From: Thiomicrospira sp. XS5
Lineage (GTDB): Bacteria > Pseudomonadota > Gammaproteobacteria > Thiomicrospirales > Thiomicrospiraceae
Direction of reading: 5' to 3'
DNA: 64,000 nucleotides
Assembly: GCF_001507555.1 (NCBI RefSeq)
Contig: NZ_LQBO01000001.1
Coordinates: 1,364,001 to 1,428,000, forward strand
Below the pieces are notes generated by a model, which was not told the origin of the DNA, did not search any database, and was given only the letters and a program-made list of their open reading frames with translations. Positions 3,350 through 20,839 of this stretch are shown piece by piece. How positions within the stretch are numbered: position 1 is the first letter of the stretch; each line of letters starts with the position of its first letter. The position numbers and the translations under genes were made by a program.

Positions 3350-3955
3350 ATGATTGGTTTTTTATCGGGAAAATTACACGCCAAGCGCCCACCGCAGATT
3401 TTGATTGACGTGAATGGCGTCGGTTACGAAGTTGAAGCGCCGATGTCCACTTTTTACGCCATCGGCGAAGCTGGTGCCGACGTGACGTTGCTGACACATA
3501 TGCATGTGCGGGAAGACGCCATGTTGTTGTTTGGTTTCGCCACCGAACAAGAACGCAATTTGTTCAAAGAGCTGATTAAGGTCAACGGAATCGGCGCGAA
3601 AATGGCCATCGGCATTCTGTCGGCCATGTCGGTCAACGATTTTGTCGGGCTGGTGGATGTGGGCGACGCCCCGGCCTTGACCAAAATTCCGGGCGTGGGC
3701 AAAAAAACCGCCGAACGTCTCGTGATCGAAATGCGCGATCGTTTGAAGGGTTGGGGGGCCGTGGACGGGGTGACATCTTCTGCGGGCACCGCGAGTCCGA
3801 AACTCGAAACGGTTGGCAGCATGGCGCCAGCCATCGAAGCGCTGGTCTCATTAGGGTATAAACCGGCGCAGGCCGAAAAAATGGTCAATGCGGTGGAAAA
3901 GGGCTTGAGCTTGGAAGAAACCATCAAACAGGCCTTGATGACCATCAAGTTATGA
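3350..3955 (+). CDS. ruvA: Holliday junction DNA helicase subunit RuvA
   Basis: 201 residues. RuvA binds four-way junctions as a tetramer and loads RuvB. It starts MIGFLSGKL, typical of RuvA. The helix-hairpin-helix segments [13 protein letters not shown] and [16 protein letters not shown] are visible, followed by a flexible linker and the C-terminal RuvB-binding domain ([16 protein letters not shown]). ruvA is normally followed closely by ruvB; here 508 bases intervene, holding a structured element (4164-4429). Confidence 0.96.
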
Positions 3956-3959
3956 GAAT

Positions 3960-3990
3960 CGAAAGCCGACATTCTTCGGCTTCAAACTTT
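3960..3990 (+). terminator. Possible weak terminator after ruvA
   Basis: AAGCCGA and TCGGCTT form a 7-bp stem with a CATTC loop, followed by CAAACTTTTT. It could attenuate transcription into the structured element and ruvB. The T-run is offset, so this is tentative. Confidence 0.45.
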
Positions 3991-4163
3991 TTCAATGGTG
4001 TCTGACGAAGGCACCGTTAGAATATCGATAACCAATCCAATAATCATCCGGCATGTATCGGATGAAAACGATACCCTGAAGCACTTGACCGGTGGAGGCA
4101 ATAACGAAATTCAACTCAAAAAAGATAAGAGAAAGATTATAATGAGTTGCGTTATTCGATAAG

Positions 4164-4429
4164 TAGTCGACACTGAATAACACATTTGAATTTTGGCACA
4201 GCCAGACTTTTCTCAACAAGGCAGAATTTTGAAATGCTATCTCGATAACATGAGAAATTCTAACGATGTTGAGGCAAGTCTGGTGAAGCCCTTTCAGGTG
4301 GGCGTTTAAGCGTGCATCCTCGTTGTTGCGAATCTTGATAAAGGAATGACCTTTATCTGCAATTCGCGCCTAGAGGCTACTCGCTTAAACGTCCCACAAA
4401 ATTTTAAATGCGTTATTCAGTGTCGACTA
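4164..4429 (+). ncRNA. Structured element A (unrecognised RNA family, copy 1)
   Basis: A ~266-nt segment that folds end to end. An 18-bp perfect outer helix (4164-4181 with 4412-4429) continues with interruptions to 4194/4398. Inside are CCAGACTT (4202-4209) with AAGTCTGG (4276-4283), CTCAACA (4212-4218) with TGTTGAG (4267-4273), GCCC (4288-4291) with GGGC (4300-4303), GTTTAAGCG (4304-4312) with CGCTTAAAC (4382-4390), GCGAAT (4328-4333) with ATTCGC (4362-4367), and GATAAAGG/CCTTTATC around an AATGA loop (4337-4357). Element B (18551-18819, opposite strand) has the same architecture and short shared blocks but different stem sequences. The + strand is proposed as RNA sense from a G-U pair (4188-4405) and from homology with B. 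No protein of note is encoded. ruvB starts 35 bases downstream. Confidence 0.75.
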
Positions 4430-4463
4430 AGTAATGGCACTGAGCTAAGGTGACGGGTTTAAG

Positions 4464-5483
4464 ATGATTGAAACGGATCGTATTGTCGGTGGACAGGCGT
4501 TAGAAGAAGACATGTATGTTCAGCCATCTGTTCGCCCACAGATGATTACGGACTACATTGGACAGCAGGCGGTTCGTGAGCAGCTTCAATTGTCGATTCA
4601 TGCGGCGAAAATGCGTAACGAACATTTAGATCACGTTTTGTTATATGGCCCGCCAGGCCTGGGTAAAACCACGCTTTCCAATATCATCGCCCAGGAAATG
4701 GGCGTCACCTTACGCCAGACATCCGGACCGGTCATTGAAAAACCGGGCGATCTGGCCGCCATCTTGACGCGTTTGGAACCGAACGACGTTCTGTTTGTCG
4801 ATGAAATTCACCGTCTCAGCCCGATTGTGGAAGAGATTCTGTATCCGGCGATGGAAGATTTCCAGATCGATATCATTATCGGTGAAGGGCCGGCTGCCCA
4901 GACCGTGAAAATCGATATTCCACCCTTTACCTTGGTGGGCGCGACCACGCGCGCCGGGCTGTTGACGTCGCCGTTGCGCGATCGTTTCGGTATCGTCCAG
5001 CGCCTGGAGTTTTATTCGGAAGATGAGTTGGCTCAGATTGTCAGTCGTTCCGCCAATATTCTCGGCATGGATACCCAGTTGGACGGCGCCTTGGAAATTG
5101 CACGCCGTTCACGCGGCACGCCACGTATCGCCAACCGTTTATTGCGGCGGGTGCGAGATTATGCTCAGGTAAAAGGCAACGGCATTATTACCGCGGAGAT
5201 TGCCGATGCCGCGTTGAATTTGTTGGAAGTGGATCCGCTCGGTCTGGATAAGATGGACCGGCGCCTGCTGGAACTGTTGATTGAAAAATTTGAAAGCCGC
5301 CCTGTGGGCATCGACAGCATTGCTGCGGCCTTAGGCGAAGAAAGAGGGACGATTGAAGACGTCATCGAACCGTTTCTTGTGCAGCAGGGCTTTTTAGTTC
5401 GTACTCCCCGGGGACGTGTGGTGACGCAAACCGCGTACCGACACCTAGGGTTAGCACTACCGGAGAAATTTGAAGATGAATGA
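4464..5483 (+). CDS. ruvB: Holliday junction DNA helicase motor RuvB
   Basis: 339 residues. RuvB is the AAA+ ring ATPase that drives branch migration with RuvA. Walker A is GPPGLGKTT, Walker B is FVDEIHRL, and sensor/arginine-finger segments ([17 protein letters not shown]) are visible, followed by the C-terminal winged helix ([27 protein letters not shown]). The Walker A codons for Pro-Gly-Leu contain a CCAGGCCTGG repeat. The end overlaps tolQ by 8 bases, so the two are probably translationally coupled. Confidence 0.97.
4653..4662. repeat. CCAGGCCTGG palindrome copy 3 (in ruvB Walker A)
   Basis: Exact copy, read in frame as Pro-Gly-Leu within the nucleotide-binding loop. Confidence 0.9.
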
Positions 5484-11276: not shown

Positions 11277-11352
11277 GGGTCGTTAGCTCAGCTGGTAGAG
11301 CAGTTGGCTTTTAACCAATTGGTCGCGCGTTCGAATCGCGCACGACCCACCA
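11277..11352 (+). tRNA. tRNA-Lys (anticodon TTT), copy 1
   Basis: 76 nt with an encoded CCA. The acceptor stem GGGTCGT/ACGACCC, D-loop AGCTCAGCTGGTAGAGCA, anticodon stem-loop TTGGCTTTTAACCAA with TTT anticodon, and T-arm with GTTCGAATC are all intact. Confidence 0.97.
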
Positions 11353-11400: not shown

Positions 11401-11476
11401 GGGTCGTTAGCTCAGCTGGTAGAGCAGTTGGCTTTTAACCAATTGGTCGCGCGTTCGAATCGCGCACGACCCACCA
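11401..11476 (+). tRNA. tRNA-Lys (anticodon TTT), copy 2
   Basis: Identical over all 76 nt to the copy 48 bases upstream, including CCA. Probably co-transcribed from the same promoter. Confidence 0.97.
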
Positions 11477-17533: not shown

Positions 17534-18424
17534 CTAAGGCGTATTTTCCTGCGCTGAAAAATTATCTTCTGCATATTGTGCCAGCATTTGGCCCATTTGA
17601 ATAGGGGTATTTTCCGCTATTTGTCCCAGGCCTGGCATTTTGCCTTCCGGGGCCAGCAGAATAACCGTGGAACCCATATTGAAACGACCAATCTCCTGGC
17701 CTTTGCTAAAGTGTTGTTCGTCGTTTTGGTAGTCCCAATGTTGCAGGGTCGGCAAATAATCCGGGGTGATTTTGCCCTGCCAGACGGTTTCCATGCTGCC
17801 GACGAAAATGGCGCCGACCATGATCAGGCAGAAGGGGCCCTGTTCGTTTTCGAAGCGGATCACCAAACGTTCGTTACGGGCGAAGAGGCCGTCGACATTG
17901 CGCACCGTTGCCGGGTTGACGGCAAACAGGTCACCGGGCACGTACGTCATGGACAGCAGTTTGCCGTTGGCCGGCATGTGAATGCGGTGGTAATCCTGTG
18001 GGGACAGGTAGATGACACAGCTGTCGCCATTGGTGTAGGTTTTGGCGTATTCGATGTCGCCGCCCAGTAAAGCTTCCAAAGAGTAGTCATGGCATTTGGC
18101 TTGAATTAGATTATGGCCCCGGATGGCTTGTGACTGGCTGACAACGCCGTCCACCGGGCTACACCAGGCCTGGTCGTTTCCGTCAATCGGGCGCAATTCG
18201 GGTTTCAAGGCGCGGGTGAAAAAGGCGTTGAAATGCGGGTAGTTCTCGAAGTCCTCGTCTTCCGCTTCGGAGACGTCGATTTTATAGGCTTTGGTCATCA
18301 ATTTGATGGTGGTGCTCTTAACCCAAGGCTGGCGGATGTGCATAAACCAGTGCATGCCCTTCGACAGCAGTTTCTGGGGCAGAACGTATTGGGGGACGAC
18401 CTTAAAAAAATCGGTAAATCGCAT
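17534..18424 (-). CDS. psd: Phosphatidylserine decarboxylase proenzyme
   Basis: 296 residues. Psd makes phosphatidylethanolamine and cleaves itself at a conserved Gly-Ser bond to form a pyruvoyl group. The processing motif GST is seen in [11 protein letters not shown] near residue 254. Other family motifs are [27 protein letters not shown] and [13 protein letters not shown]. The gene contains two CCAGGCCTGG repeats. The start ATG has only a distant AGG. Structured element B lies just upstream in the same orientation. Confidence 0.95.
17626..17635. repeat. CCAGGCCTGG palindrome copy 6 (inside psd)
   Basis: Exact copy, read on the - strand as Pro-Gly-Leu in MPGLGQ. Confidence 0.9.
18164..18173. 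repeat. CCAGGCCTGG palindrome copy 7 (inside psd)
   Basis: Exact copy in a different phase from most intragenic copies; read on - as Gln-Ala-Trp in NDQAWCS. Confidence 0.9.
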
Positions 18425-18550
18425 TCGGGGAAACCTGTCTCGTATTCAAAATGGTGAACGGCTGCTTGCGGTGCCCAGCCTTTGACGGAAGCCAGCAGCG
18501 GAGCGGGTTTGCCTGTGAAAATAAATTCGCTGACAAATGCAAAGAGCATT

Positions 18551-18819
18551 AAGGAACCTCCTGATGGAATCGGTATGAGATTCTGCGGGACTTCAAGCCC
18601 ATCCTATTCTAGGCATGGCTCGCCGACCTTAGTCATTCTAAGGTCAAGAGCCATAACAACGAAGAGATGGGCTTTCGGCCCGCCCGAAGGGGCTTAGCCA
18701 AGTTTCCGACTTCTGCGTTACCCTTTTTCGTGGTATCCAGATAGCACTTCAAAATGCTGCCTTGAAGACGAAAACTTGGCGTTGCCAGAATCCAAACGGA
18801 TTCAATCAGGAGGTTCCTT
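18551..18819 (-). ncRNA. Structured element B (unrecognised RNA family, copy 2)
   Basis: A ~269-nt segment homologous to element A (4164-4429) when read on the - strand. A 15-bp perfect outer helix (18551-18565 with 18805-18819) continues with mismatches through 18585/18786. Inner helices are 18772-18780 with 18697-18705, 18666-18674 with 18595-18603, 18648-18654 with 18615-18621, and 18638-18645 with 18625-18632 around the same AATGA loop as A. Nearly every stem differs in sequence from A yet stays paired. Shared blocks include TTTTGAA-TGCTATCT, CGTTGTT, AAGCCC and GCCTAGA. The 3' arm of the outer helix holds AGGAGG. It fills most of the psd-argG gap. Confidence 0.75.
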
Positions 18820-18841
18820 TAAAAAACAGTTGATTTTAATG

Positions 18842-18887: not shown

Positions 18888-20099
18888 ATGTCGGAAATTA
18901 AAAAAGTCGTTTTGGCCTACTCCGGTGGTCTGGATACGTCAATTATCGCCAAATGGTTGCAAGAAGAATATCAGTGCGAGGTGGTGACCTTCACCGCCGA
19001 TATCGGGCAGGGCGAAGAAGTGGAGCCGGCTCGCGCCAAAGCGCAGGCCATGGGCATCAAAGAAATTTACATTGAAGACCTGCGAGAAGAGTTTGCTCGC
19101 GATTTCGTTTTTCCGATGATGCGTGCCAATGCGATTTACGAAGGCGAGTACCGTTTGGGGACGTCCATTGCGCGTCCGTTGATTTCAAAACGCTTGGTGG
19201 AAATCGCTCAGGAAACCGGTGCCGACGCCATTTCTCACGGTGCGACCGGGAAAGGGAACGACCAGGTCCGTTTCGAGTTGAACGCTTATGCGTTGATGCC
19301 GGACGTTAAAGTCATCGCGCCTTGGCGTGAGTGGGATTTGCTGTCACGTGAAAAACTGATGGCCTATGCCGAAGAGCACAATATCAGCATCGAGAAAAAA
19401 CAAGGCAAGAAATCGCCGTATTCGATGGACGCCAACCTGCTGCACATTTCCTATGAAGGCGGCATTATCGAAGATCCGGCCAACGAACCGGAAGAAGATA
19501 TGTGGTTGTGGTCGGTTTCACCGGAAAATGCGCCGGACAAACCAACCTATTTGACCATCGGTTATGAAAAAGGTGACATCGTTTCCATCAATGGTGACGC
19601 GATGTCTCCGGCGACGGTCATGGAATACCTGAATAAGGTGGGCGGTGAAAACGGCATCGGTCGTGACGACTTGGTGGAAAACCGTTTTGTGGGCATGAAA
19701 GCGCGCGGATGTTACGAAACACCGGCCGGAACCATCATGCTGAAAGCACACCGTGCGATGGAATCCTTGACTCTAGACCGTAATGCGGCGCACTTGAAAG
19801 ACGAGTTGATGCCGAAATACGCGGAAATGATTTACAACGGTTTCTGGTTCAGTCCGGAGCGTGAAATGTTGCAGGCATTGATCGATCAGTCGCAACAGAA
19901 TGTTTCCGGTGACGTTCGCCTGAAACTGTATAAAGGAAATGTGATTGTGGTGGGACGTACGTCCGACAACAGTCTGTTTGATGAAGACATCGCCACTTTC
20001 GAAGATGATGGCGGCGCTTATAACCACAAGGATGCGGAAGGTTTCATCAAGTTGAACGCTTTGCGTTTGAGAACGGCTGCCAAGAAACGCGGCAAGTAA
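18888..20099 (+). CDS. argG: Argininosuccinate synthase
   Basis: 403 residues. ArgG joins citrulline and aspartate with ATP in arginine synthesis. The PP-loop [16 protein letters not shown], the [15 protein letters not shown]-type motif ([15 protein letters not shown]) and the [17 protein letters not shown] segment are intact. AAGGAAATCGC precedes the ATG. pgpA follows after 18 bases. Confidence 0.97.
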
Positions 20100-20615: not shown

Positions 20616-20715
20616 GGCATTAAGGTATATTTCGAGAAAAATTAGATTTCATTAAATGAGAGCTTTGTACGAGTGGGGCGCGAAGAAAAAAAGAGAAAAA
20701 ATCTGTTCGATTAAG

Positions 20716-20755
20716 GCGGAAACCGCAGCCAATGGCTAGCCATTGGCAAGTTTTT
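20716..20755. terminator. Hairpin plus 20-bp perfect palindrome followed by T-run
   Basis: A short GCGG-AAA-CCGC hairpin (20716-20726) is followed directly by the perfect palindrome GCCAATGGCTAGCCATTGGC (20728-20747) and then AAGTTTTT. It may end the argG-pgpA transcript about 110 bases after pgpA. The palindrome differs from the CCAGGCCTGG family. The rest of the 20616-20839 gap is featureless. Confidence 0.55.
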
Positions 20756-20839
20756 CAACGTAAATCGGGCGGGTTTTAGCCTTTTTTACTCGTGCATCCA
20801 TCTCGTGCAACGCTCTCTAAAATAACGGGTTAAAGAAGA

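Follow-up and report, generated by a model that had tools for sequence, protein, structure and literature searches.

What kind of object occupies the gap between ruvA (3350-3955) and ruvB (4464-5483) in Thiomicrospira sp. XS5, and what is it about this piece of DNA that makes it fold so completely upon itself? The segment, here termed element A, lies in a window of 64,000 nucleotides, the whole stretch of the genome that was analysed. A preliminary description of this DNA had proposed that positions 4164-4429 form a complete fold with a homologue on the opposite strand, and that the pair represents a selected RNA structure of an unrecognised family, possibly a non-autonomous mobile RNA of the HEARO/omega-RNA kind. 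The fold is confirmed, with an end-to-end energy of -122.8 kcal/mol against a mean of -61.0 for 200 shuffles (z -14.23), and the arms 4164-4194 and 4399-4429 are 90% complementary. Within 4164-4429 there is no ORF of 80 aa or more, and no promoter-like site was found in 3900-4500, a weakly informative result as shuffles give just 1.1. The reading favoured here, at a probability of roughly 0.78, is that element A is a non-autonomous MITE moved by the IS5 family, whose inner hairpin unit, H, is selected as a folded single strand.

Element A and its relatives in the window

The proposed limits hold for the fold and are slightly wide for the element. The termini read GTCGAC...GTCGAC and are set between direct repeats TAAGTA, and since these repeats are the target duplication, the outermost TA pairs of the fold are those of the target and element A proper spans 262 bp, without a transposase gene. 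Its parts are collected in Table 1, together with its relatives in the window, as recovered with two covariance models: R1, built from 27 copies, and R2, a model of H built from distant genomes alone, without the family of the window.

Table 1. Coordinates of element A, its parts and its relatives within the window.
Feature	Position	Strand	Evidence
Left target-site duplication, TAAGTA	4160..4165	.	direct repeat of 4428-4433
Element A, two-hairpin MITE, A-type ends GTCGACACTGAATAAC	4166..4427	+	R1 235.5 bits (element A itself in R1's alignment); copies in other genomes
Left terminal inverted repeat, 5' arm of closing helix	4166..4195	+	matching end on IS5-family insertion sequences of G052 and G030
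Domain 1, hairpin unit H, sense on + strand, diverged	4201..4284	+	alignment A1 columns 38-123; polarity
Linker hairpin CCC-NNN-GGG	4288..4299	+	A1 columns 127-139; motif in 64/68 distant copies
Domain 2, inverted copy of H, sense on - strand	4300..4395	-	R2 4315-4380 (-), 58.5 bits, E 8.6e-13
Right terminal inverted repeat, 3' arm of closing helix	4397..4427	+	arm complementarity, alignment A1
Right target-site duplication, TAAGTA	4428..4433	.	direct repeat of 4160-4165
Element B, B-type ends GGAACCTCC..., between psd and argG	18553..18817	-	R1 241.8 bits (element B also part of R1's alignment)
Third member, single-H, 160 bp, ends GAGAGC..GCTCTC	20658..20817	+	R2 20705-20769 (+), 33.1 bits, E 3.5e-6

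The opposite-strand homologue, element B, is likewise real. It is flanked by psd (17534-18424, - strand) and argG (18888-20099), the region 18545-18830 folds at -135.5 kcal/mol (z -10.15), and the stem pairs quoted earlier for the two copies are, by eye, each present in the copy to which they were assigned. A clean target duplication is absent from element B, with TAAA and TTAA beside its ends. The AGGAGG in its right end was considered as the ribosome site of psd and dropped, the psd ORF starting at 18424. The third member, which lies between pgpA-like and rhodanese-like genes and has a fold z of -8.43, was missed by R1.

In keeping with the earlier description, which recognised no known family, element A has no match to Rfam release 15 (4227 families), which at gathering score identifies in the window two tRNAs, both outside the element. 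Permissive runs gave three matches far below gathering scores, one of them in 4000-4500, and none of 20 distant loci was matched. A role as an omega-RNA or HEARO element used by an IsrB, IscB or TnpB nuclease would suit a structured, mobile unit of ~260 nt, and this part of the earlier proposal is scarcely credible, given terminal inverted repeats with target duplications and no match to such RNAs at gathering score in the window or the 20 distant loci, nor at E<=5 within 4000-4500. The tandem tRNA genes at 11277-11349 and 11401-11473 have identical Rfam scores.

Two minor observations concern the surroundings of element A. Terminator-like sites on the + strand occur at 3963-3982, directly after ruvA, and at 4192-4206, within element A, with 0.5 expected by chance, and a 15-nt pairing (87% complementary) between 4012-4026, after ruvA, and 4254-4268, in domain 1, is probably chance.

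Dispersal, target duplications and derivatives

With element A as the BLAST query, copies are found in its own genome (G000) and in relatives, amounting to 13 of the 62 genomes of the family, with 12 dispersed copies scored in G048. The aligned copies end sharply at GTCGAC...GTCGAC and are flanked by direct repeats that mostly follow TANNTA. A second end type taken from the own genome, GGGCACCTCGATTAACC, widened the family to 30/62 genomes. The covariance-model search that had been suggested does return further homologues, R1 matching 35/62 genomes of the family at E<=1e-3, with 21 matches in G000 and at least 32 in G048.

Target duplications accompany 43 of 71 family copies, a set that includes a few orthologous sites; flanks shuffled 500 times give 5.8 on average and never more than 13. 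Such duplications are found with 18/19 copies of end type A (6 bp, one mismatch in six tolerated), 12/27 of type C and 13/25 of types B, D and E, and no scored duplication is present in the other 28, element B among these. In addition, the genome G014 preserves the empty site for the copy at G000:C1:1449094-1449356, which is a clean 263-bp insertion with a 4-bp TATT duplication; a relative of element A has inserted in the own genome since its split from G014. The suggestion that the element is mobile and non-autonomous is borne out by these duplications and the empty site, together with the terminal inverted repeats and the dispersed copies.

Copy length is 261-265 bp in 42 of 49 measured copies. 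In a set of loci scored for gene context with a crude ORF caller, 32/49 are intergenic and the other 17 overlap an ORF of at least 100 aa by more than 100 bp. Shorter derivatives exist: copies without domain 1 in G026 and G038 have intact ends and duplications, as does a 176-bp deletion derivative in G024. By coordinates, G026 also holds five 57-bp end-only A-type copies, and the two that were read (L121 and L122) both have TACTTA duplications. These 57-bp copies have the appearance of a secondary mini-MITE, two ends with little between.

IS5-family partners

Which transposase could move an element that has none of its own? A complete 1487-bp insertion sequence in G052 encodes a 456-aa transposase (518 bits to NCBIfam transpos_IS5_1), its end AGTCGGCCCTGAATAAC is identical in 15 of 17 letters to the A-type end AGTCGACACTGAATAAC, and its flanks are TAAGTA and TAAATA. 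In G030 an interrupted IS5_1 element with an A-type end stands between two TAATTA sequences, so that autonomous insertion sequences with the same ends as element A are represented by the IS5_1 elements of these two genomes. For the B-, C- and D-like ends, similar termini are seen on transpos_IS5_4 insertion sequences in G182 (end GGAACCTCTGATCAATC, flank CTAG), G117 (end GGGCACCTCTATTTAGT, flank ATAA) and G028 (end GGAAACACCGAATAAGTC, flank CTAR). The end type of Vibrio and Pseudoalteromonas agrees just in its first letters with an insertion sequence in G182, the split transposase of which reaches 103.9 bits to transpos_IS5_3, slightly below the cut-off of 110. No matching insertion sequence was found, among those examined, for the distant end types TACTCC.., TGTACTGC.., TAAGACAAACG.. 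and TTAACCCGG.., and two profile searches gave no PF01609 or NF033578 match in G000. PF01609-positive genomes number 5/16 in one set, in which G000 is negative, and 5/12 in another. Also in G182 (L280, ~960-1060 and 2280-2370), the two ends of a different type of MITE (TATTAACCCGGCA) flank an IS5-type insertion sequence (ends CTAGTGTCCGG) that has inserted between them.

From the ends and the targets, and by analogy with MITEPsy1, we infer that an IS5-family transposase acting in trans moved element A, and the copies as a whole look like a superfamily of IS5-mobilised MITEs. Are the ends then exchanged at will between cores? On a tree built from 61 of the 71 cores the end class changes 6 times, with a minimum of 4 and a shuffled value of 31.4, which rules out free swapping of ends between cores. 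Under midpoint rooting, types A and E are each confined to one side of a branch and type C falls among B rows. The ends therefore follow lineage and change rarely.

A stand-alone family of small RNA genes, whose dispersal is incidental, would explain the covariation and the conserved loops, and is nevertheless highly improbable for elements that possess terminal inverted repeats, target duplications, an empty site and matching IS5-family partners. The structure that had been taken for an RNA gene is real, but it is that of a mobile DNA element.

Covariation and strand polarity

A central issue is whether the pairing has been kept by selection and, if so, on which nucleic acid. In alignment A1, which holds 27 of 29 non-redundant sequences (the longer L059 and L115 were left out), 76 of 98 consensus pairs have changed on both sides, the consensus structure having been derived from A1 itself. 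Pairing reaches 94.3% of cells against 74.4% after shuffling, the covariation score is 0.541 against 0.174 with 0/500 shuffles as high, and sliding the partners by 1-3 columns lowers the pairing to 29.7-47.4%. Thus the earlier observation that stems change while pairing is kept stands. Of the conclusion of a selected RNA structure, what survives is that the inner hairpins are polar in the manner of a selected single strand; it does not hold for the closing helix, the covariation of which is explained by the terminal inverted repeats, which covary by nature.

This polarity is seen in the G.U and A.C cells of the paired columns. Across 68 distant copies (68 of 69 candidates, L193 being left out) the G.U:A.C ratio is 142:16 in domain 1, 96:145 in domain 2, where 67 of the 96 represent one invariant U.G pair and some A.C cells may be misaligned loop positions, and 55:50 in the terminal inverted repeats; alignment to the covariance model and the choice of orientation favour G.U on the modelled strand, and domain 2 is opposite regardless. 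Counted by sequence, the wobble cells of domain 1 divide 59 sequences to 1. The corresponding ratios for domain 1, domain 2 and the closing helix are 53:7, 40:30 and 32:22 in the 27-copy alignment, and 37:19, 15:27 and 3:5 among the G048 copies. When the domains are not split, a strand-symmetric test of the interior is near even (59:47). A test on the RNAalifold structure had given GU 100 : AC 39 and was discarded, since the choice of strand for the folding had skewed it. The opposite wobble polarity means that each H has a sense strand, that of domain 1 on one strand and that of domain 2 on the other, and that the terminal inverted repeats have none.

When H units are folded in isolation, the sense strand is the more stable of the two in 55 of 62, a sample drawn from the motif-filtered set A3 (75 found of 136 possible, 62 used), in which the invariance of CAAGGC/CAAC arises by construction. 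The outcome is the same with RNA and DNA parameters, so the polarity indicates a single-stranded hairpin and offers no choice between RNA and single-stranded DNA (ssDNA). H seems, accordingly, to be selected as a folded single strand of one or the other.

Could the covariation instead be mutational, with template switching between the arms (quasi-palindrome correction) keeping palindromes perfect in the absence of selection? For the terminal inverted repeats, which covary without polarity, such an origin may apply. For the element as a whole it is improbable: the inner hairpins have polarity, and among the closely similar G048 copies (mean identity 93.6%) two-sided changes occur in just 4/93 pairs, on which grounds template-switch compensation among close copies was rejected. 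Furthermore, motifs stand at fixed places in the 68 distant copies (AAGGC in 60, CCC-N3-4-GGG in 64, GCGTTG-like in 55 and CGCCT in 49, with mean motif counts in windows over the element of 6.2, 6.1, 9.4 and 8.0, respectively), and conserved unpaired letters of an internal loop, such as AAGGC, would be corrected away.

The hairpin unit H

H comprises ~66 nt (CAAGGCG...CAACGC) and has the layout CAAGGCGC, stem, GCAGGnAATGG loop CCnTTCCCTTGnCAAG, stem, GCAACGCCG. It is present once in ~160-bp forms and twice, inverted, in ~263-bp forms, and in the lineages examined is placed ~47-56 nt from the ends. In distant copies domain 1 and reverse-complemented domain 2 represent one and the same hairpin. 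When the two are cut at fixed positions and compared across the 68 copies, with no motif filter, the mean score is 9.9 against -3.6 for antisense and -4.3 for shuffled sequence, and with the motif letters removed it is 1.3 against -3.7 and -4.9. A motif-filtered comparison (16.3 within elements, 17.0 between elements, -1.7 antisense) overstates the likeness, as the shared motif inflates the score. The motif pair occupies the right strand in 47/68 cases for domain 1, 49/68 for domain 2 and 35 for both, and the wrong strand in 0.

R2 finds matches in 15 of the 16 genomes given to it; G000 holds 23 H and G117 holds 123. Its matches in the window comprise those of domain 2 and the third member in Table 1, together with both H units of element B at 18602-18667 (+) and 18707-18771 (-). 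Domain 2 of element A was recovered at the same place in the genome search, and domain 1 of element A gave no R2 match at E 0.5. Inverted-repeat units enclose 29/30 H loci, with lengths of 157-167 bp (9) or 266-297 bp (20), a line that is soft in that the excluded L322 (score 8.0) is close to the counted L333 (8.5). In nine insertion-sequence loci R2 detects no H, two matches at L282 belonging to a neighbouring element. Together with the target duplications of the 57-bp copies, this makes H apparently dispensable for basic transposition.

Candidate roles of H

If transposition does not need H, what then is it for? The mechanism favoured here, tentatively and at less than even odds, is that H is an orientation-independent hairpin of the nascent RNA that softens insertions in operons. 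With its copies inverted, the first hairpin transcribed would be sense H whichever way RNA polymerase enters, and on the nascent transcript this hairpin might either recruit something or shield it, in an antitermination-like or transcript-protecting fashion, whereby insertions in operons such as ruvA-ruvB would become tolerable. The genes around single-H loci (n=9) go against such a read-through role, albeit in a small sample: three loci lie between convergent genes, and beside tandem genes H is antisense in 5 and sense in 1 (2 with the window copy).

The other possibility, which carries about equal odds and is just as conjectural, is that H acts as a DNA structure, whether as cruciform arms or as single-strand folds at the replication fork, that is bound by a host DNA protein. 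In this form it might conceivably aid transposition, assist the timing of replication or give protection against nucleases that cleave palindromes. The two-fold symmetric layout relative to both ends and the lack of a sense bias of single-H copies towards host transcription are consistent with this, and polarity is expected for ssDNA too, G.T being better than A.C. However, the 9:1 excess of G.U relative to A.C in domain 1 is a high ratio for a DNA structure, and the absence of H from the nine insertion-sequence loci and the 57-bp copies suggests that the transposases do not need it.

Relation to known elements

The usual picture of a MITE is that of a deletion product of a single insertion sequence, short-lived and confined to a species. 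What is new here is the persistence and the symmetry of H. A parallel in architecture is offered by REPINs, which are inverted REP doublets with short REP motifs and RAYT HUH transposases. Like these, the two-H elements carry an inverted doublet of hairpin units in one mobile unit, whereas in the element A family the hairpin is a different one and the terminal inverted repeats are accompanied by target duplication. Elements of the Correia/NEMIS and ERIC types are multi-copy, mostly intergenic folding MITEs bound to a genus or a few families; they fold as the element A family does, but have other ends. We know of no MITE of the Correia, NEMIS or ERIC type in which a single core is combined with varying ends across a phylum.

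In the published record, as represented by the portions of the sources consulted, REPINs are named in PMC3189936 and Correia and ERIC elements are treated in PMC10969869. MITEPsy1 of Pseudomonas syringae is a 100-nt element with ends GGAAGGTCTGAAAAAGCC, a 4-nt duplication CTAG or YTAA and no gene, the mobility of which was trapped by experiment; its probable source is ISPsy2, with the family listed as 'IS5?', and the well conserved copies reported for it come from a restricted number of P. syringae pathovars (PMC3189936). It is like the D-type copies in its similar ends and in having no gene, and unlike element A in its length and in that a two-hairpin core is not described for it in the available portion of that source. 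QMITE1 and QMITE2 of Coxiella burnetii, of 300-400 and 150-190 bp with direct repeats of 2-3 and 7-11 nt, are also gammaproteobacterial MITEs with long folds, QMITE1 having variable ends round a conserved core, and three sRNAs derive from the two; the lengths and direct repeats described set them apart from the element A family (PMC5896051). The open-access literature, in the parts available, offers MITEPsy1, QMITE1/2, MITEs from Thiomargarita, an inventory of stem-loop repeats and a review of general scope, and within these a MITE core common to a phylum with changing ends is not described.

Distribution across genomes

How far does the element extend? Beyond the family, R1 at E<=1e-4 matches 103 of the 369 genomes in the class sample, corresponding to 82/272 genera, the class of the sampled genomes having been inferred from named matches. 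It also matches 58/398 genomes sampled from the phylum at E<=1e-8, with 26 outside the class and 22 of those 26 in one family. The E-thresholds differ between the family, class and phylum searches, and as the scoring in these took in just 32, 5 and 5 candidates from each genome, respectively, the R1 copy numbers should be read as minima. Any palindrome with this geometry is credited by R1, and the opposite strand at these loci reaches 50-147 bits, so matches below ~100 bits are weaker than their E-values imply, and homology rests on the motifs, the unfiltered comparison of domain 1 with domain 2, and R2.

An exact pattern finds 23 stretches in Thiomicrospira, Hydrogenovibrio, Thiomicrorhabdus, Methyloprofundus and Thiotrichales/Piscirickettsiaceae contigs, and 0 matches in viral contigs, for which one such pattern was used. 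DNA similarity leads to plasmid records of Azotobacter, Pseudomonas aeruginosa, Halomonas, Vibrio, Pseudoalteromonas and Catenovulum. Among the plasmid records listed, 15/16 best places have no annotated gene under them, in a PLSDB gene table that is incomplete (one checked record has 2 features in all). As DNA queries, element A had no match in plasmids, L171 none in plasmids or E. coli, and L301 none in phages.

A plan that hardly varies in length, with a conserved inner hairpin, has thus been retained while the ends change, in 103 of the 369 genomes of the class sample and in genomes beyond it, which raises the question of what cargo of a MITE merits conservation for longer than its transposase. 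It may be, although the odds are judged to be below even, that H is a portable RNA or ssDNA module, present through much of the phylum, that outlives many transposase partners, with the ends re-tailored for each transposase. If so, H would be a 'passport' hairpin on a parasite of IS5-family elements, often doubled and inverted such that it works in either direction, and would engage a host factor conserved across Pseudomonadota, which would represent a new kind of function for a MITE. On a practical level, the family can pass for a 'new RNA', and a covariance model would aid its annotation.

The candidate set aside from the distant copies, L193 (G127:C125), is a two-H element with a short palindrome (GGAATCTCTGAATAAA...) nested in its linker.
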